Shown here: piece after piece, positions 50,134 to 59,054 of the stretch
Layout of the letters: the number at the start of each line of letters is the position of its first letter
Numbering within the stretch: position 1 is the stretch's first letter
Source: Puniceicoccaceae bacterium
GTDB lineage: Bacteria > Verrucomicrobiota > Verrucomicrobiia > Opitutales > JAFGAQ01
Assembly: GCA_028285755.1 (NCBI GenBank)
Contig: JANQOQ010000001.1
Coordinates: forward strand, 1-64,000
DNA: 64,000 nt
Direction: 5' to 3'
The notes under the pieces: generated by a model
What the model saw: the letters and a program-made list of their open reading frames with translations, nothing else
Told to the model about the DNA's origin: nothing
Databases searched by the model: none
Program-made: the position numbers and the translations under genes

Positions 50134-51597
50134 TCAGAGCGCAATGTTATTGTGCAGAAGCACAACCCCCGCCTGCCGGTCAAACTGCACCAGTGCCTTC
50201 CGGTATTCGTTTTCAGCAGCTACTTCGCGAATCTGTGCATTCACCAGGTCCGTCTGGAGCCGAATGAGGATAAACGTGGATGAGGTACCCCGCTGGAAAC
50301 GCTTTTGCTCAGCCTCCAGGCTCTTTTGGGCGAGATCACTGCTCGTGCGGGCACTTTCCAGGCGGTTCCAGCCATTCTCTACCTGAGCCGCTGCCGAATC
50401 CAGATCCAGCAGGATTGCCTGTTCGAGTTGTTTGATCGTAAGCTCGCGGCGATTGTTCTCCAGTGACGCAATGCCTATTCGGGCTTCCGCTGCACGGTTG
50501 CTGATCGAACGCGTAACATTCAACCCGATCGTATAATCAGGAAATTTATCACTATCCAGGTCATTGTAAGTCTGCCGGAAGGATCGACCAAAGCCCTCCA
50601 TACTCATGCGCGCATAAAGATTAACCGAAGTCAGCGATGCATGCCGCTCACGCGCCACCTCAATTTCTCCGATCTCCAAATTCAAAATGGCCTGTTGATA
50701 GTCGGGGCGCAATTCCAGCGCCCTTCCAAAACTGCGATTCGCACTCACTTCCGACTTCTCTACCACATTGGGGGTTTCAAAGGAAAAATCCCAATCCAGT
50801 ATCCCCACGACCTGATCCGATAATGAGCGCTTGATGCGATTCTTGGCCTGTACCAGTGCGGATTCAGCCAAATACACCCGCTCCTCACGGGCAGCGACCT
50901 CCGCCTCTGCCTGGAGTATATCCGTAGACGCGATAGAGCCGATTTCCGAGCGCCGGCGAATTTGCATGAGTAGCTGCCTCGCCAAATCGAGGCTCTCATG
51001 GGCTACCCGCAGGTTTTCCTGCGCCAAAACCCCATCGTAATACGCAAATTGTACTTCCGAGACCGTATCGATCACCGTCTGCCTGAGGCTTTGCTCCGCG
51101 ATGTTGAGCCGCTTCCCGGCAATCAGGATGCGCGCACGGTTAAAGTCCCGGCTGGAACCGCGCAGCAACGCCTGATTAACCGTCAGTGACGTTTCACCCG
51201 AACGGGGGATCGCCAGCTCGTCAAATTTGGTATTGGAGGACTGCAGGGAAACATTGGTTCCCGTATCAAATGCTTTTTCTATCGAGATGTTCTGGCTCGC
51301 TCCACTTACCGAAAAAGGGAAACTATTGGGATCACTGTTCGAATCCCGAAATTCAGATGCAGACACGCTCACCTGGCTCTCAAACGTCTCCGCCGAAACA
51401 TCCTGCTCAAGCTCCGATTGCAGAACCTCGGCCTCAACAATTCTTATGGAATAAGTGTTGGCGAGCGCCATTGGGATGATCTCATCAATACCGATTTCCG
51501 AGGGCTGATCTTCTGCAGCATCCGCAAACCCGGTGAACATCATCAAACCCAGCACAACCGCACCGGCTTTTATTCGATTTTTAAAGTACTTCTTCAT
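50134..51597 (-). CDS. TolC-family outer membrane efflux protein
   Basis: 487 residues with a signal peptide (1-27). The two OEP repeats of long coiled-coil helices and beta strands are visible, for example LARQLLMQIRRRSEIGSIAS near 205 and LEAEQKRFQRGTSSTFILIR near 430, the latter being the second copy of the conserved RxxxGxxS region. It forms the outer membrane exit duct of the export system encoded just upstream (adaptor, ATPase, permease). 120 bp containing a hairpin separate it from the permease gene. Confidence 0.92.
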   Translation of the reverse strand: MKKYFKNRIKAGAVVLGLMMFTGFADAAEDQPSEIGIDEIIPMALANTYSIRIVEAEVLQSELEQDVSAETFESQVSVSASEFRDSNSDPNSFPFSVSGASQNISIEKAFDTGTNVSLQSSNTKFDELAIPRSGETSLTVNQALLRGSSRDFNRARILIAGKRLNIAEQSLRQTVIDTVSEVQFAYYDGVLAQENLRVAHESLDLARQLLMQIRRRSEIGSIASTDILQAEAEVAAREERVYLAESALVQAKNRIKRSLSDQVVGILDWDFSFETPNVVEKSEVSANRSFGRALELRPDYQQAILNLEIGEIEVARERHASLTSVNLYARMSMEGFGRSFRQTYNDLDSDKFPDYTIGLNVTRSISNRAAEARIGIASLENNRRELTIKQLEQAILLDLDSAAAQVENGWNRLESARTSSDLAQKSLEAEQKRFQRGTSSTFILIRLQTDLVNAQIREVAAENEYRKALVQFDRQAGVVLLHNNIAL

Positions 51598-51717: not shown

Positions 51718-54135
51718 TTAATCAATGCGCAGTGCCTCCGCAGGATCTGTGTTTCCGCCACGGATGGCAGGTATCAGGATGGCTACGGAAGATATGATTA
51801 AAATTAAAAGCAGAACCCCCATATAAACGACGGTGCTTTCGAATAGAGGCTGCAGAATGTTCATTAGCATAAATCGGATGAGAAAAGCCGCCAACACCCC
51901 AAATACGACCCCCACTGCAACATTGATCAGCCCTTCCCGGAACACCCTCAGGATGACATGCCCGGGAGATGCCCCCAAAGCCAAACGGATGCCGATCTCC
52001 CGAATCTTTTGACTCACTGAGAATGAAACCACGCCATATAGGCCCGCCGTTGCCATAATGAGTGCACCGACCGCAAATGTGGAGAATAACACAAAGATAA
52101 ACCTCAGGCTGATCTGAAATCCGCGAATCCGCTCCGTAAACGTCTCAACGTGCGAAATCAATACTCGGGAATCAATATCAGCCACCGTTCGGACAAGATT
52201 CGACTCAAAGGCCTTCGGGCTGTTGGGGATTTTCATGTGGATACCGAAATCGAACCATACATCCTGGAAGGAGCATAAGAAGAAGCCAGTTCGTTGATTA
52301 CGGTCACGCTCACTCTTAAAAATATCCTGAGATACCCCAATCACATTGAGCGTCCATTCTTCGTCACCATCCCGGTAAATCATCTGCTTACCAATCGGGT
52401 TTTCATTTCCCCATACCTGTTTGGCAAAAACATCCGTGACAATCGCCACATAGGGGCGCTCCTTATCATCAAGCTCCGTGAATTCCCTCCCCGCAATCAG
52501 GGGTGCACCCATGAGCTCAAAATACCCGGGCGACACTACCCATCGATAGAAAACCGGAAAATCATCGGTACTTGCATAGTCTTCCCCCACGATTTCCAGG
52601 GGAACGGTGATGCCTCCCGTGAATAACTCAGTGGAGTAAGCCGCACCCTGAACCTCAGGAAATGCATTCAGCTCCTGCATTACCTTCTTTAACATAACGG
52701 CCCGCTCCTGGTGCGTTTCATACATATTGGCATCCATACCCAGCTGGGCGTAGAGAAATTCATCCGGATCATAAGTCAGATCCTGGGAGTTGATATCGTG
52801 CAGGAAATAACCTACGATGGCTCCCCCGGTTACCACTGCACAGGCAGCAGCAATCTGGAAAATGATCAAAAGGCGACCCAGAATCGTCATTTTCAACGAT
52901 GATCCCGTGCGCGTGGAATCCCTTAACAAATCAGCCAATGTTGTCTTCGAGGCCCGCATCGCCGGTACCAGCGTAGAGGCTACGGTCACAATCACCGGAA
53001 TAATGATCACAAACAGGAAGTGCCGGAAGCTGTACTCCTCCTTGAAAAACCAGGAAGGCACGTTGAACTGCACATAGTAATCCAGAAATACCTCGGTGTG
53101 AAACCACTGCATCAGCAACCACCCCAACACCAATGAAATGGCGCTTATTATCAGAGATTCAAATAGCATTTGGTTCACGATCTGGGTGCGTGAGGCCCCG
53201 AGAGCACTCCGGATAGCCAGCTCATTGGCGCGCTTGGCACTGCGAACCGTTATCAGGTTCGACACTATCGCACAGGCCATAAACAAAATGAGTATCGCGC
53301 AAATGGCCATGGACAGGAAAAGCATCCGCGTTTGCTGATTAACAAAAAGTTCCTTAAAATGCTGAAACTCGATACTCTCGTAATTGGTATTCTCTACTGG
53401 CAGGAGCTCCTTCACCTTCATAAACGCATCGTTGGCCTGTTGAAGCGCGAGTTCAGGTGAAATATCTCCCCGGGTCTTACCCAATAAGAATACCTCGCTA
53501 CCCCAGCCGACCTGCTCAGTCACCGTCGCCGTATTCAGGGGTATCCAGGCTTGATTGGTGAATGGAAAATCAAATCCTTTGGGGGTCACCCCAATAATCG
53601 TGCGTATGATTCCATCGGCCTGAACCGTCCTTCCCAGAATATTTGGATCATTCGCGAAGAATTCACTCCAAAGTTGATGCGATATCAGCAAAGTGGGCGT
53701 TGCATCGGGCTCAGCATCCTCAGGCGTAAATGTCCTACCCATAATGGGCTCAACACCCAGCAGCTCCAGAAAATTGGTTTCAATATAGGGAACCCCCAGT
53801 TGCCTGCCTTTTTCCCCATCCTTTAAGATCACGTTGTCATTAAACATGGCAATAGTACCCTCCAGGCCATTATCGAGCTCCTTAAAACGCTCAAAGGTCT
53901 CATGGGGGAAACTCGAGTTCGCATTCGGATTCTGCGGGTTATCCCGCATGATCCGCATCAGGCGATCGCTGCCATCATAGGGGAGCTTACTCATGACCAC
54001 CGATTCGATCATGTTAAACATCAGCGAAACCTGGGCAATCGCGATGGATAATACCGCAATCGAAAGCATCGTGATAAGCGGTGTTTTCGCCATCACGCGC
54101 AGGGCAAATAGAAAGTGGTTTGTATATCTTTTCAT
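51718..54135 (-). CDS. ABC transporter permease, duplicated MacB/FtsX type (ADOP-like)
   Basis: 805 residues. Two similar halves each contain a periplasmic MacB core domain and an FtsX permease domain. The paired signatures RSALGASRTQIV (near 307) and RLALGASPGHVI (near 717), and the C-terminal PAEALRID, mark the duplication seen in acidobacterial-type orphan permeases. About eight membrane helices are present, the first at residues 15-35. It works with the ATPase encoded 11 bp upstream, the HlyD-like adaptor and the TolC protein to export a peptide, lipid or antibiotic-like substrate; the substrate is unknown. Confidence 0.9.
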   Translation of the reverse strand: MKRYTNHFLFALRVMAKTPLITMLSIAVLSIAIAQVSLMFNMIESVVMSKLPYDGSDRLMRIMRDNPQNPNANSSFPHETFERFKELDNGLEGTIAMFNDNVILKDGEKGRQLGVPYIETNFLELLGVEPIMGRTFTPEDAEPDATPTLLISHQLWSEFFANDPNILGRTVQADGIIRTIIGVTPKGFDFPFTNQAWIPLNTATVTEQVGWGSEVFLLGKTRGDISPELALQQANDAFMKVKELLPVENTNYESIEFQHFKELFVNQQTRMLFLSMAICAILILFMACAIVSNLITVRSAKRANELAIRSALGASRTQIVNQMLFESLIISAISLVLGWLLMQWFHTEVFLDYYVQFNVPSWFFKEEYSFRHFLFVIIIPVIVTVASTLVPAMRASKTTLADLLRDSTRTGSSLKMTILGRLLIIFQIAAACAVVTGGAIVGYFLHDINSQDLTYDPDEFLYAQLGMDANMYETHQERAVMLKKVMQELNAFPEVQGAAYSTELFTGGITVPLEIVGEDYASTDDFPVFYRWVVSPGYFELMGAPLIAGREFTELDDKERPYVAIVTDVFAKQVWGNENPIGKQMIYRDGDEEWTLNVIGVSQDIFKSERDRNQRTGFFLCSFQDVWFDFGIHMKIPNSPKAFESNLVRTVADIDSRVLISHVETFTERIRGFQISLRFIFVLFSTFAVGALIMATAGLYGVVSFSVSQKIREIGIRLALGASPGHVILRVFREGLINVAVGVVFGVLAAFLIRFMLMNILQPLFESTVVYMGVLLLILIISSVAILIPAIRGGNTDPAEALRID

Positions 54136-54146
54136 GGCCTTCGCAA

Positions 54147-54884
54147 TCAGGCATTCACCTTTTCATCCACGATTCTTCCGTCAAACAGGAAGACCACCCG
54201 CTTCACCATAGAGTTGTAGTGCTCATTGTGGGTCACCACACATACGGTGGAGCCTTGTTGGTGAAGCTCGCTGAGCAGCTCCATGACTGCCTCACCATTT
54301 TTAGAGTCCAGATTCCCGGTGGGCTCATCCGCAAGCAATATCCGCGGCTTGCCTACCAGTGCCCGGGCTACCGCCACGCGCTGTTGCTGCCCCCCCGAAA
54401 GTTGACTCGGCAAATGCCCCTCACGGTGATCCATCTCCACCCGTTCAAGCGCCTCTTTGACCAGTAGCTTGCGCTCCGAATACGGCACATCCCGGTATAT
54501 CAAGGGCAGCTCAACATTCTCGGAAACACTCATCTCCCCAATCAGATTGAAGTTCTGGAAGATGAATCCGATCGCCTTATTACGCAGTAGCGCACGCTTG
54601 CGGCCTTTGAAATCCTGTACCTCTTCACCATCCAGCAAATAACGGCCTGAGGTATTCCGGTCCAGTAAACCGACAATCGACAATAGAGTGGATTTCCCAC
54701 ACCCGGACGGACCCGAAATGGAAAGAAAATCACCTTCGTCAATGTCCAGATAAACTCCGCTCAACGCGCGGGTTTCCATGCGGTCGGTATAAAAAACCTT
54801 CGAAACATCCTCCAGCTGGATGATATGGTTTCCGGTTGCTTTTACAGTAGAGGTTGGGGATTCAGTTTGGGTCGTAGTAGTCAT
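54147..54884 (-). CDS. ABC transporter ATP-binding protein (MacB/LolD type)
   Basis: 245 residues. Walker A GPSGCGKST (58-66), Q-loop IFQNFNLI (108-115), signature LSGGQQQR (162-169), Walker B ILLADEPTG (182-190) and the switch His in VVTHNEH are all intact. The sequence belongs to the MacB/LolD/FtsE group, which powers FtsX-type permeases. It lies between the adaptor gene (23 bp) and the permease gene (11 bp). Confidence 0.96.
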   Translation of the reverse strand: MTTTTQTESPTSTVKATGNHIIQLEDVSKVFYTDRMETRALSGVYLDIDEGDFLSISGPSGCGKSTLLSIVGLLDRNTSGRYLLDGEEVQDFKGRKRALLRNKAIGFIFQNFNLIGEMSVSENVELPLIYRDVPYSERKLLVKEALERVEMDHREGHLPSQLSGGQQQRVAVARALVGKPRILLADEPTGNLDSKNGEAVMELLSELHQQGSTVCVVTHNEHYNSMVKRVVFLFDGRIVDEKVNA

Positions 54885-54907: not shown

Positions 54908-56167
54908 CTAACGCCTCAGTTGGATGGCTTCAGAACTCATCCAGCGTGACGAATCGGACAGTATAATCTGTTCTCCCGGGCGCAGCCCGTTGAGAATTTC
55001 GATTAAGGTTACGGATGAACGCCCAAACTCCACCAGTGTGCGGTCTGCCCGGGTTCCATCCTCGTTCAAAACAAATACTAATTCGCTCGTGTTTTCCTTC
55101 GCGATACTGGGGCGATCCACAAACACAACGTCCGTTAACCGCTGCAGCTCTATCGTGCCTTGTACGGTCTGCTCCGCCCTTACCCCTTCAGGCAATCCAT
55201 TGGGAAACCCAACATCCACACGGACTATCCCACGCTCCACATTGGGATCAATACGGGTAACCACCGCATCCACGAGCCCGGATGATCGGGTATCGACGAC
55301 CGCCACCTGCCCGATCTGGACCTCCCTGGCCTGGCTTTCCTGAACTTCCAGAACAGCCTCCAACTTCTGCGGATTGGCTACCAGGGCCAGTTGCATACCC
55401 TGGGTAACCTGCATACCCTGCTCCACTTCCAGTTGCTGGATAACCCCCTCAAAACCTGCACGCACATTTAACCCGTCGATCTGTGTTTGGAGTAAATTGA
55501 GGCGTGCTTTTGCCTGATCTACCATGGTTTGCTGCACAGCCAGCTGAGGTTCTACCGACTGCTCCTGAAAAGCAAGCCGCTCCCCTTCGGTTTCCAGGCG
55601 CGAACTCAGATGTTTGGCGCTGAGTATCGAGCGTTTCAAATTCAACTCGGATACCAGCCCTTCACTGAACAGCTGCTCATTGATCTCCTTATCGAGCTCT
55701 GCCATCTCAGTACTTTCCTGCAGCTGAGTGTAGGCACTGCGCATGGAAAGCAGTTCGATTTGCAGTCGCACCCGGGTGCTGGTTAGCTGAGCGACTGCAG
55801 CATCAAGCTCCAGCTTGGCATTTTGGTATTGCTGCTCCAGTTCCGGATTTGAGAGCTTCAGGATCAGTGTATCCAGGGTCACCTCAGCCCCGGAATCTAC
55901 AAATCTTTCTTCTACGCGGCCTAAACTTTGCGACGTGATCCAGCGCATATCTTCAGGCACGAGCCTTCCGAGCCCTCTTACATTTCTAAGCATATCCCCC
56001 CGTTGGACGGTACCTACCCAGACTTCATCGCGATCCACACGGGGCAGTGGGCTACTCAGCGTAAACACATAAATAAAAACGCCTAAAATCAGCACAGCAC
56101 CAATGCCAAACCAGATGCGTTTTTGTAATTGTTTCTTCTTAAACCTGTCGGGGCGTTCTATATCCAT
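54908..56167 (-). CDS. HlyD/RND-type periplasmic adaptor
   Basis: 419 residues. A membrane anchor (about 18-38, GIGAVLILGVFIYVFTL) is followed by a lipoyl-like half (GDMLRNVRGLGRLVPEDM), a long coiled-coil hairpin (about 110-215), the second lipoyl half and barrel (INGLNVRAGFEGVIQQLEVE-type segment near 235) and a membrane-proximal domain ending FGRSSVTLIEILNGLRPGEQ. It links the ABC permease to TolC across the periplasm. It is the first gene of the export operon and has a sigma-54 promoter directly upstream with a leader of only about 10 nt. Confidence 0.92.
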   Translation of the reverse strand: MDIERPDRFKKKQLQKRIWFGIGAVLILGVFIYVFTLSSPLPRVDRDEVWVGTVQRGDMLRNVRGLGRLVPEDMRWITSQSLGRVEERFVDSGAEVTLDTLILKLSNPELEQQYQNAKLELDAAVAQLTSTRVRLQIELLSMRSAYTQLQESTEMAELDKEINEQLFSEGLVSELNLKRSILSAKHLSSRLETEGERLAFQEQSVEPQLAVQQTMVDQAKARLNLLQTQIDGLNVRAGFEGVIQQLEVEQGMQVTQGMQLALVANPQKLEAVLEVQESQAREVQIGQVAVVDTRSSGLVDAVVTRIDPNVERGIVRVDVGFPNGLPEGVRAEQTVQGTIELQRLTDVVFVDRPSIAKENTSELVFVLNEDGTRADRTLVEFGRSSVTLIEILNGLRPGEQIILSDSSRWMSSEAIQLRR

Positions 56168-56187
56168 AACCTAAGCACCTTCACATA

Positions 56188-56203
56188 TGCAATGCCCATG
56201 CCA
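56188..56203 (-). promoter_or_regulatory. Sigma-54 (-24/-12) promoter of the export operon
   Basis: On the minus strand TGGCAT-GGGCA-TTGCA has GG (56202-56201) and GC (56190-56189) separated by exactly 10 bp, as sigma-54 requires. The only deviation from TGGCAC-N5-TTGCA is the sixth base. The start site would be near 56177, 10 nt before the adaptor ATG. Confidence 0.85.
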
Positions 56204-56286
56204 ATTAAAACGAATTTCATATAGCATTGATTAACAATAGCTTAAAAAAGATCATATAAAACCGAGCAAGTATTACAAACCTCTCA

Positions 56287-56324
56287 TGTATCACTCTGAT
56301 ACAACCAAGTCTCAATTTGATACA
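56287..56324 (-). promoter_or_regulatory. Tandem enhancer sites for the NtrC-family regulator
   Basis: A perfect palindrome TGTATCA-CTC-TGATACA (56287-56303) is followed by a second, imperfect copy AGTCTCA-ATT-TGATACA (56308-56324). The centres are 21 bp apart, two helical turns, and about 90-115 bp upstream of the sigma-54 promoter. This is the usual layout of NtrC-type enhancers. Confidence 0.75.
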
Positions 56325-56349
56325 ACCCGTACTAAACCCAATATTCTAC

Positions 56350-57690
56350 CTATATGACCTGTAGAGGTAGCCGAACGGTCGCTCTGCAACCACCCTCCGG
56401 ACGATTTGCTAACTCGATCGATCCACCATTCGCTTCGGCAATGTGTCGGCACAGCACTAAACCGATACCGCTCCCCTCCGATTTGGTGGAGAAAAAAGGC
56501 ACAAATAGGTTTTCCTCTTTATCAATACCGGGCCCGTCATCATCAATCCACAACACTGCATCGGTACTCGCCCGTTCCCAGGAAATCACAACCACCCCCG
56601 AATCATCCGTTAAGGACTCATGGGCATTTTTGATCACATTGATCAAGAGCTGTTCCAGCTGGATGGGATCTACGATCAAGGTGCATTCAGGGCCTTCCCT
56701 TAATTGGATCTCCGGCAAGCGCATGAGCTTAACTACCTTTTCAACACACTCCTTTAAATCAATCGGGCGCCGGTCCGGCTCCGGAAGTTTGGCCAGCTTT
56801 GCGTAATTATCTACAAATCGATTCATGCCATTGGCACGGGAAGAGATAACATCCAAGGCATCCAGGGTAGATTCCTTCTTATCCACATCAATTTCCATCT
56901 TTTCGAAACGATTTTTCAAGCTCTGGGATAGTGAAATGATGGGCGTTAGAGAGTTGTTTAGTTCGTGCCCCAAAACCCGGATCAATCGCTTCCATGCCAG
57001 CCGCTCCTCCTCCCGTAGCGGTGTTTTAACATCCGTGAGCAGATACAGATTCTTAGGCTTACCATCCTCCCGGAATGCAGAACGGTGGATCAGGAAACGA
57101 CTGCTCTTCTCGGGGAACTCGAGCCAAATCGTCCGCCCCGTTACCGATTCATCCAGAGCTTGCAGATTAAGCTCATCTATCGAATTTCCAACCAGGTGAT
57201 TCGCAGATTCATTGTATAAGTGAGCAAGGTAGGCATTCACCATCGTCGCCATCCCGTTCCCATCGAAAGCGATTACCCCAATTTCCACCTGGTCAATCAG
57301 GTATTGAAAACGCCGATTGGATTCAATAGCCGCGATCCGGTTGTTTTGCAACTCCTCTGCCAAGGTATTGATTTCATCATGCAGATAACCAATCGCATGC
57401 CGTTTGCTGTAGGTAACCAGGCGTTGTGAATAATCCCCCTGGTGGAGCGATCTCACACTGTTTGCCAAGGTGTAAAACGGTTCGTGGCAAACTCTCCAAA
57501 GCCCGAATAATAACAAACCGGCCCATAAAAGGTAGGAAAACAATAGCAAACCGAATAAATCTCCACTGATATCCTGTACCCGATACTGGTATACGTTAAA
57601 GACAATAGGAGGTATAGCTAAGAGTAATCCGAGCGAAAAAATCTGAAGCTGTAGGGGAAATCTCCGGAAAATCTGATTCAGCCACTTCAT
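56350..57690 (-). CDS. NtrY/NtrB-like sensor histidine kinase
   Basis: 446 residues. Two membrane helices (about 14-34 and 46-66) with almost no periplasmic loop, a HAMP-like segment (about 70-120), a PAS domain (about 125-220), HisKA with His242 in GHELNNSLTP, and the ATPase domain with N-box (INVIKNAHESL), G1 (DDDGPGI) and G2 (GSGIGLVLCR). The absence of a periplasmic domain suggests a membrane or cytoplasmic signal, for example envelope stress or a substrate of the exporter. The start overlaps the end of the response regulator gene by 4 bp, so the two are coupled. Confidence 0.92.
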   Translation of the reverse strand: MKWLNQIFRRFPLQLQIFSLGLLLAIPPIVFNVYQYRVQDISGDLFGLLLFSYLLWAGLLLFGLWRVCHEPFYTLANSVRSLHQGDYSQRLVTYSKRHAIGYLHDEINTLAEELQNNRIAAIESNRRFQYLIDQVEIGVIAFDGNGMATMVNAYLAHLYNESANHLVGNSIDELNLQALDESVTGRTIWLEFPEKSSRFLIHRSAFREDGKPKNLYLLTDVKTPLREEERLAWKRLIRVLGHELNNSLTPIISLSQSLKNRFEKMEIDVDKKESTLDALDVISSRANGMNRFVDNYAKLAKLPEPDRRPIDLKECVEKVVKLMRLPEIQLREGPECTLIVDPIQLEQLLINVIKNAHESLTDDSGVVVISWERASTDAVLWIDDDGPGIDKEENLFVPFFSTKSEGSGIGLVLCRHIAEANGGSIELANRPEGGCRATVRLPLQVI

Positions 57691-59054
57691 AGTCCGTAGT
57701 CCTGCAACCTACGGTAAAAGGTCGCTCTGCTGATGCCTAATTGCTTGGCTGCGCTGGTTACGTTTCCACCATGTTTTTTTAGCGCTTTTTGCATCAGCAG
57801 CTTTTCTATCTCTTCCATACTCATGGATTCAATGTCCGCATGGGTCTCAACCCCCGTATCCATCATCAGGTGCCGCCCGGTGATCTCTTCTTCATTGCAC
57901 ATCAATACAGCCCTCTCAATGGCGTGGTTCATCTCACGCACATTTCCCGGCCAGTCATAGCCCATCAATACGCGCTCTGCATCCCGGCTGAACCTGCGGA
58001 TGTCTTTACGGTACTTTCGGTTCATCTGCCCCAGAAAGAGATGGGCAAGCGGCATGATATCCTCCCTGCGGTTGCGTAGGGAAGGCATTTCCATCATTAC
58101 CGTATTCAGGCGGTAAAAAAGGTCTTCGCGAAACGATTTATCTGCCACACGCTCCCGGATGGGTGCATTGGTCGCGGAAACGATGCGAACATCCGTCTTA
58201 ATCGTACGGGATGAGCCCACCCGCTCAAACTCACCGGTCTCCAGCAGCCGCAGGAGTCGATTCTGCTGAGGTAGAGTAATATTGCCGATCTCGTCCAAAA
58301 AGATGCTTCCTCCCCGCGCGAGCTCAAAGCGCCCGGCACGGTCTGCCTTTGCATCGGTAAAGGCTCCCTTCACATGACCGAAGATTTCGCTTTCAAATAC
58401 TCCCTCGGCCAGACCGCCCATATTCACACTGATGAACGGCCCCTCATTACGCTCCGAAACATTGTGTATAAGGTTTGCTACCACACTTTTGCCGGTTCCA
58501 TTTTCCCCGAGCAGCATCACATTCGCCTCGGAGGGGCCGATATTCTCAACGATGGACATAATCTCCCGCATCGCCGGTGACTTGGCAATAAAATCGCTGG
58601 GGATATTTTCTTCCCGGGCGAGCCGGGTCTGCTCTTCAAGCAGGCGACCCCGCCTCATCGAACGTGTATTCGCAGCGACCTTGTCCACCATTTGAATAAC
58701 ACGTTCGTTATCCCAGGGTTTGCTTATAAAATCACTGGCTCCTCGCTTCAGGGCTTCCACAGCAAGATCAATCGTACCCCAGGCGGTCATGACTACGATC
58801 GGCAAATCCGCATCAAGCTCCTTCAGCTTATCTATCAGTTCAAGCCCCTCCTCACCGCTTGTAGTATCGCGCGTGTAGTTCATATCCAACAAAGCCGCAT
58901 CGAATTCAAAGCGTTCCACTTTGTTTATAATCTCTTTAACGGAACGCGCCGGTACGAATTTCCAACCCTGATCCTCAAAGAGTATCTTTCCTGAGGCGAT
59001 GATGCCGTCGTTATCATCCGCCAGCAGTATCGTATATTGATTCGAAACCCTCAT
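57687..59054 (-). CDS. NtrC-family sigma-54-dependent response regulator
   Basis: 455 residues. Receiver domain (about 8-125) with Asp13/Asp14, phospho-acceptor Asp57 and Lys in SKPW; AAA+ domain with Walker A GENGTGKS (183-190), the sigma-54 contact loop GAFTDA (230-235; consensus GAFTGA), and Walker B GSIFLDEIGN; C-terminal Fis-type helix-turn-helix VTSAAKQLGISRATFYRRL. It activates sigma-54 RNA polymerase after phosphorylation by the adjacent kinase. The palindromes at 56287-56324 are its likely binding sites. Confidence 0.95.
   Translation of the reverse strand: MRVSNQYTILLADDNDGIIASGKILFEDQGWKFVPARSVKEIINKVERFEFDAALLDMNYTRDTTSGEEGLELIDKLKELDADLPIVVMTAWGTIDLAVEALKRGASDFISKPWDNERVIQMVDKVAANTRSMRRGRLLEEQTRLAREENIPSDFIAKSPAMREIMSIVENIGPSEANVMLLGENGTGKSVVANLIHNVSERNEGPFISVNMGGLAEGVFESEIFGHVKGAFTDAKADRAGRFELARGGSIFLDEIGNITLPQQNRLLRLLETGEFERVGSSRTIKTDVRIVSATNAPIRERVADKSFREDLFYRLNTVMMEMPSLRNRREDIMPLAHLFLGQMNRKYRKDIRRFSRDAERVLMGYDWPGNVREMNHAIERAVLMCNEEEITGRHLMMDTGVETHADIESMSMEEIEKLLMQKALKKHGGNVTSAAKQLGISRATFYRRLQDYGL

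Follow-up and report, generated by a model that had tools for sequence, protein, structure and literature searches.

Regulons of the NtrC/AtoC/PrsR type combine a regulator of receiver-AAA+-Fis HTH architecture with a kinase partner and with tandem operators upstream of a -24/-12 promoter. The system reported here is alike in all of these, but it is predicted to control exporters and small envelope proteins, its operators read TnTCA-N3-TGAnA or TCCCR-N5-GGGA, and its regulator carries a GAFTDA loop. BceRS-BceAB of Firmicutes, as described in the consulted part of its literature, also pairs an FtsX/MacB-type ABC system with a neighbouring two-transmembrane kinase that has almost no external domain, and such intramembrane-sensing kinases work with the FtsX-type transporter; unlike it, the present system has sigma-54, an NtrC-type regulator, a Gram-negative adaptor and TolC. 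DarBCD and MacAB-TolC share with our locus the adaptor, the ATPase and an FtsX-type permease. Identity with the darobactin exporter was rejected because all scores fell under the DarB/C/D cut-offs, and a non-systematic look at the neighbouring genes recognised no darobactin biosynthesis gene.

The closest published work appeared in 2025 (PMC12316311): according to its accessible part, sigma-54 promoters are enriched before COG0577/COG1136 ABC antimicrobial-peptide transporters in Opitutia, a result presented there as new, which amounts to a prediction of sigma-54 control for the same exporter families, in the same bacterial class, as here. That study scored promoters, and the accessible part of its text names no regulator for these exporters and does not contain the word "operator". 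A sequence-only reading of the present locus had called sigma-54 control of a MacB-like efflux system by a dedicated two-component pair a non-textbook arrangement; comparison supports such control, but the 2025 prediction came before it. In the open-licence literature we found no prior description of the regulator, its operators, or the spacing classes and operator switch described below, and a text search of the available portions of PMC3162934 and PMC4641369 found no mention of ABC exporters. The phylum is one for which regulatory data are very scarce; for a sigma-54 exporter regulon in it, the present analysis supplies a regulator, the promoter layout and two dialects of the operator, and turns the statistical prediction, as far as the accessible part of PMC12316311 describes it, into testable sites.

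The window (the whole stretch of 64,000 nucleotides that was analysed) contains a kinase whose stop lies at 56350 and an adaptor whose ATG lies at 56167, leaving a gap of 182 bp (56168-56349) in which the candidate control elements are found (Table 1). The promoter TGGCATGGGCATTGCA conforms to TGGCAYR-N4-TTGCW with a GG-to-GC distance of 10 bp and is the sole exact match in the window. Because matches with up to one mismatch are near expectation there (6 versus 2.9 expected), the promoter match by itself is not significant. Transcription is predicted to start near 56177, giving a leader of ~10 nt, and the genome encodes RpoN (410.8 bits against a cut-off of 277). Of the two palindromes, TGTATCACTCTGATACA (56287-56303) is the only exact TGTATCA-N3-TGATACA that a pattern search detected in the 4.25-Mb assembly, and AGTCTCAATTTGATACA (56308-56324) is a weaker twin with 2 mismatches; their centres, 21 bp apart, precede the -24 GG by ~93 and ~114 bp. 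The sequence-only reading had the gap and the promoter with its spacing right to the base, and its two palindromic sites, about 100 bp upstream and two helical turns apart, are confirmed. None of the other two-mismatch matches to the palindrome in this genome has a good sigma-54 site suitably spaced from it, and with the patterns used no second target besides the exporter operon was found in it.

Table 1 Features of the regulator-exporter locus (window coordinates)
Feature	Position	Strand	Remarks
TolC-type outer membrane efflux protein	50134..51597	minus	PF02321, 124 bits
ADOP-like duplicated FtsX/MacB permease	51718..54135	minus	586.7 bits
ABC ATPase (MacB/LolD/DarD-like)	54147..54884	minus	
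Periplasmic adaptor (HlyD/MacA-like)	54908..56167	minus	first gene of exporter operon
Sigma-54 (-24/-12) promoter TGGCATGGGCATTGCA	56203-56188	minus	exact consensus; TGGCAT-N5-TTGCA
Candidate operator 2, promoter-proximal, TGTATCAGAGTGATACA	56287..56303	minus	perfect palindrome; conserved in relatives
Candidate operator 1, promoter-distal, TGTATCAAATTGAGACT	56308..56324	minus	TGTnTCA-N3-TGAGA conserved in relatives
Histidine kinase	56350..57690	minus	two transmembrane helices, very short external loop
NtrC-type response regulator	57687..59054	minus	receiver, AAA+, Fis HTH; GAFTDA; SRATFYRRL

The gap is, with high probability, the enhancer-promoter region of an NtrC-type two-component regulon that controls the exporter, and genome comparison demonstrates the elements at the sequence level, their conservation, their co-occurrence with the regulator and the content of the predicted regulon. 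The regulator has the receiver, sigma-54 AAA+ and Fis-type HTH domains of the NtrC type. GAFTDA replaces GAFTGA in 44/44 of its orthologues and is listed among the GAFTGA variants that would keep activity (PMC4641369), so that the loop appears compatible with sigma-54. No curated NCBIfam equivalog cut-off was reached by the regulator; PrsR (TIGR02915) was rejected at 351.3 bits against 502.6. By hydropathy, the kinase and most orthologues with assignable N-termini have two transmembrane helices and an external loop of ~10 residues, although the count depends on the chosen start codon for some orthologues and in a few only one helix exceeds the threshold. The layout is as in the intramembrane-sensing kinases of Bce-type modules, as these are described in the part of the literature consulted, and transporter-based sensing is putative here. 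Adaptor, ATPase, MacB_PCD/FtsX permease and TolC lie in one gene run, as in tripartite MacAB-TolC-type exporters. The permease aligns with ADOP (TIGR03434) over its full length at 586.7 bits, below the cut-off of 622.3 for membership, and the term ADOP-like fits it better than MacB proper. A second adaptor-ATPase exporter set in the same genome (G000:C5:31890-33137, L378), with a 46% identical adaptor and a permease gene directly before it, has neither this operator nor the promoter.

Regulator orthologues score >470 bits against ~300 for paralogues, with one full-length intermediate at 392 bits. They occur in 33/384 sampled genomes of the class, and in a phylum-wide sample all orthologue-bearing genomes fall in this same class. 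The order regulator, kinase, adaptor, ATPase is kept in most orthologous loci, with the permease following in most, and in many of them an element equivalent to the -24/-12 promoter precedes the adaptor ATG by 32-46 bp. Whether the elements are conserved ahead of orthologous adaptors had been set beforehand as a test, and the prediction held: an operator lies 85-130 bp before a -24/-12 site in 30/33 orthologous exporter promoters, compared with a mean of 0.15 and a maximum of 3 in 200 dinucleotide shuffles, a result that is in-sample because the operator pattern was written after part of the loci had been seen. Two of the three misses (G001 and G003) have the paired operator farther off, in G003 with its first T 193 bp before the promoter, and the third (G338) shows no recognisable operator at the orthologous promoter. 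Two further loci, outside the 33, show no sigma-54 candidate before the adaptor (G232, G289). When five window-type promoters were aligned, the operators stood out as invariant islands, TGTnTCA-N3-TGAGA followed by GTnTCA-N3-TGAnAC; together with the comparison to shuffles, this places the elements beyond chance. In most window-type promoters of relatives, G, A or T replaces the -12 C (TGGTT, TGATT, TGTTT, TGGTA; loci L061, L062, L063, L374, L375, L414 and L426), which counts against the sigma-54 reading, whereas the window promoter is canonical.

Most orthologous loci carry a different operator, TCCCR-N5-GGGA; in 22/25 loci its TCCC recurs exactly 22 bp further downstream. The TnTCA-N3-TGAnA dialect is that of the window and its family, plus a single genus from a different family. 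The palindrome proposed earlier as the regulator's site is thus conserved in window-type relatives but is a local dialect. As a more independent test than the shuffles, 384 class genomes were scanned for a composite of TCCCR-N5-GGGA, 85-115 bp and TGGCAY-N6-TGC, which gave 114 sites in 46/384 genomes; the reversed pattern gave 4 sites, and one extra base between -24 and -12 reduced the number to 3. With up to seven such sites per genome in relatives, the arrangement is not the single-operon curiosity that it had seemed. In a genome collection of 84,980 species, a stricter pattern with two operators matched at least 118 stretches, and 113 of the matches listed are labelled Verrucomicrobiota or PVC.

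The promoter and operators could be real and yet serve another enhancer-binding protein, the adjacent regulator-kinase pair being a bystander. At least five other proteins in the window genome are similar over the sigma-54 activator domain, and some composite sites occur in genomes lacking an orthologue above the strict cut-off. We nevertheless regard this as improbable, because composite sites co-occur with this orthologue group: they are present in 31/33 genomes with the regulator versus 15/351 without it (Fisher p = 5e-32; the true significance is lower, as the genomes are related and independence is overstated). The two regulator-bearing genomes without a composite site are the window genome, which has the other dialect, and G002. 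Seven Opitutaceae-type genomes also have composite sites upstream of the regulator gene, where they precede a small gene. Moreover, differences in the regulator HTH coincide exactly with those in the operator: six window-type regulators have SRATFYRRL (once SRATFYRKL) as recognition helix, the remaining 38 have SRSAFYRRL, and the helix agrees with operator type at every locus where both were read. This match is consistent with the recognition helix reading the operator half-site but is not proof of it; the six window-type regulators form one clade (support 99/96), so the dialect switched a single time, and a lone evolutionary event is no proof of which residues recognise DNA. One locus (G117:C67:3082-3136, L390) has three tandem window-type operators with no good -24/-12 site nearby.

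In six genomes (G001, G003, G004, G037, G079 and G125) the exporter lies apart from the regulator-kinase pair and has kept both operator and promoter. In two members of the window's family, G003 and G004, the orthologous adaptor and regulator are on different contigs and the sequence following the kinase shows no adaptor; in a third, G001, which is 86% complete, no close regulator orthologue was found. The contigs of these three are short, so their separation may partly reflect assembly breaks, yet in all three a -24 element and the TGTTTCA / TGTCTCA operator pair precede the adaptor. In G125, G037 and G079, of another family, the regulator pair has no adaptor gene as a neighbour, and the element is found at the adaptor operon, which is located elsewhere. 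Since exporters at other places in the genome retain the operators, we rejected the view that these are simply carried along with the regulator genes next to them. These loci also bear on the rival view that the exporter owes its expression to a sigma-70 promoter or to transcription running on from the regulator and kinase genes, the sigma-54 match being decorative. A 9/12 sigma-70-like match lies at 56278-56251 and no terminator was seen between kinase and adaptor; the sigma-70 match is, however, weak (2 found, 0.6 expected), and the -24 element is conserved even where exporter and regulator are not neighbours, making this explanation very unlikely. As no terminator was seen, the regulator genes may supply a basal level of exporter transcription by read-through, to which the sigma-54 promoter would add inducible expression. 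Chance occurrence of palindromes and promoter match, for which the near-expected number of one-mismatch promoter matches might speak, is hardly credible in view of the alignment islands, the excess over shuffles, the uniqueness of the palindrome and the conservation upstream of both orthologous and unlinked exporters.

Returning to the gap as the control region of the adjacent two-component pair, we infer phosphorylation, DNA binding, ring assembly and sigma-54 dependence, as well as the kind of inducer and cargo, in the following way. The kinase, which has almost no periplasmic part, would sense the condition of either the membrane or the exporter and, in response, phosphorylate the regulator. 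Dimers of the phospho-regulator would bind both operators cooperatively, because these lie two turns apart on one DNA face, and the bound regulator would assemble into an AAA+ ring acting on sigma-54 RNA polymerase at the promoter ~100 bp away, so that the adaptor-ATPase-permease-TolC operon would be switched on. The system is most likely an envelope-defence response to a toxic compound or peptide, given that the orthologous regulator in related Opitutia appears to drive more exporters together with small envelope proteins. A broader picture, possible but on the whole rather doubtful, would be a class-wide Opitutia envelope-defence regulon in which an intramembrane-sensing kinase reads exporter load, small membrane proteins with a degron-like -LAA end give timed feedback, operator-promoter distance, differing by one helical turn, separates exporters from small proteins, and the operator code was exchanged once with target families unchanged.

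The predicted regulon content is MacAB/ADOP-type exporters, TolC and small envelope proteins. Downstream genes were examined for 60 composite sites: exporter genes follow 40 of them (36 within 1.5 kb) and small envelope proteins follow 15, a tally without a random-site control. Composite length separates the two: 39/47 targets are exporters at 122-130 bp (one of 117 bp counted in), and at 137-142 bp, a difference of roughly one helical turn, 12/13 are small proteins. Exact two-operator sites in the window-type clade precede ADOP-like permeases 37-38% identical to the window permease (G104) and a small secreted protein (G004) whose homologue in the other dialect is a TonB_C-type regulon protein (pairwise blastp E 2.6e-17), so that target families are common to both dialects. 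Dialects, matching helix change and shared target families together provide a natural case of regulon-wide operator turnover, and the composite element draws attention, across Verrucomicrobiota, to exporters and small envelope proteins that are so far uncharacterised.

Several small proteins were observed at these promoters. In family f36 (L104, L105, L109 and L116) a small predicted membrane protein, encoded in the interval from kinase to adaptor, lies between promoter and adaptor, and its representative from L104 had no NCBIfam match. Sigma-54-driven small membrane proteins of ~70-100 aa have a DYxR-like motif and mostly end in -LAA or -AA, resembling an SsrA-type degron; they are found upstream of the regulator (L110, L115, L120, L123, L130, L131 and L132) and at L199, L204 and L254, and one representative had no NCBIfam match and L204 no Pfam match. 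A further group of sigma-54-driven proteins is secreted, ~93-103 aa long and marked by an LPxYxV-AP-like motif (L215, L223, L240, L244, L247 and L251).
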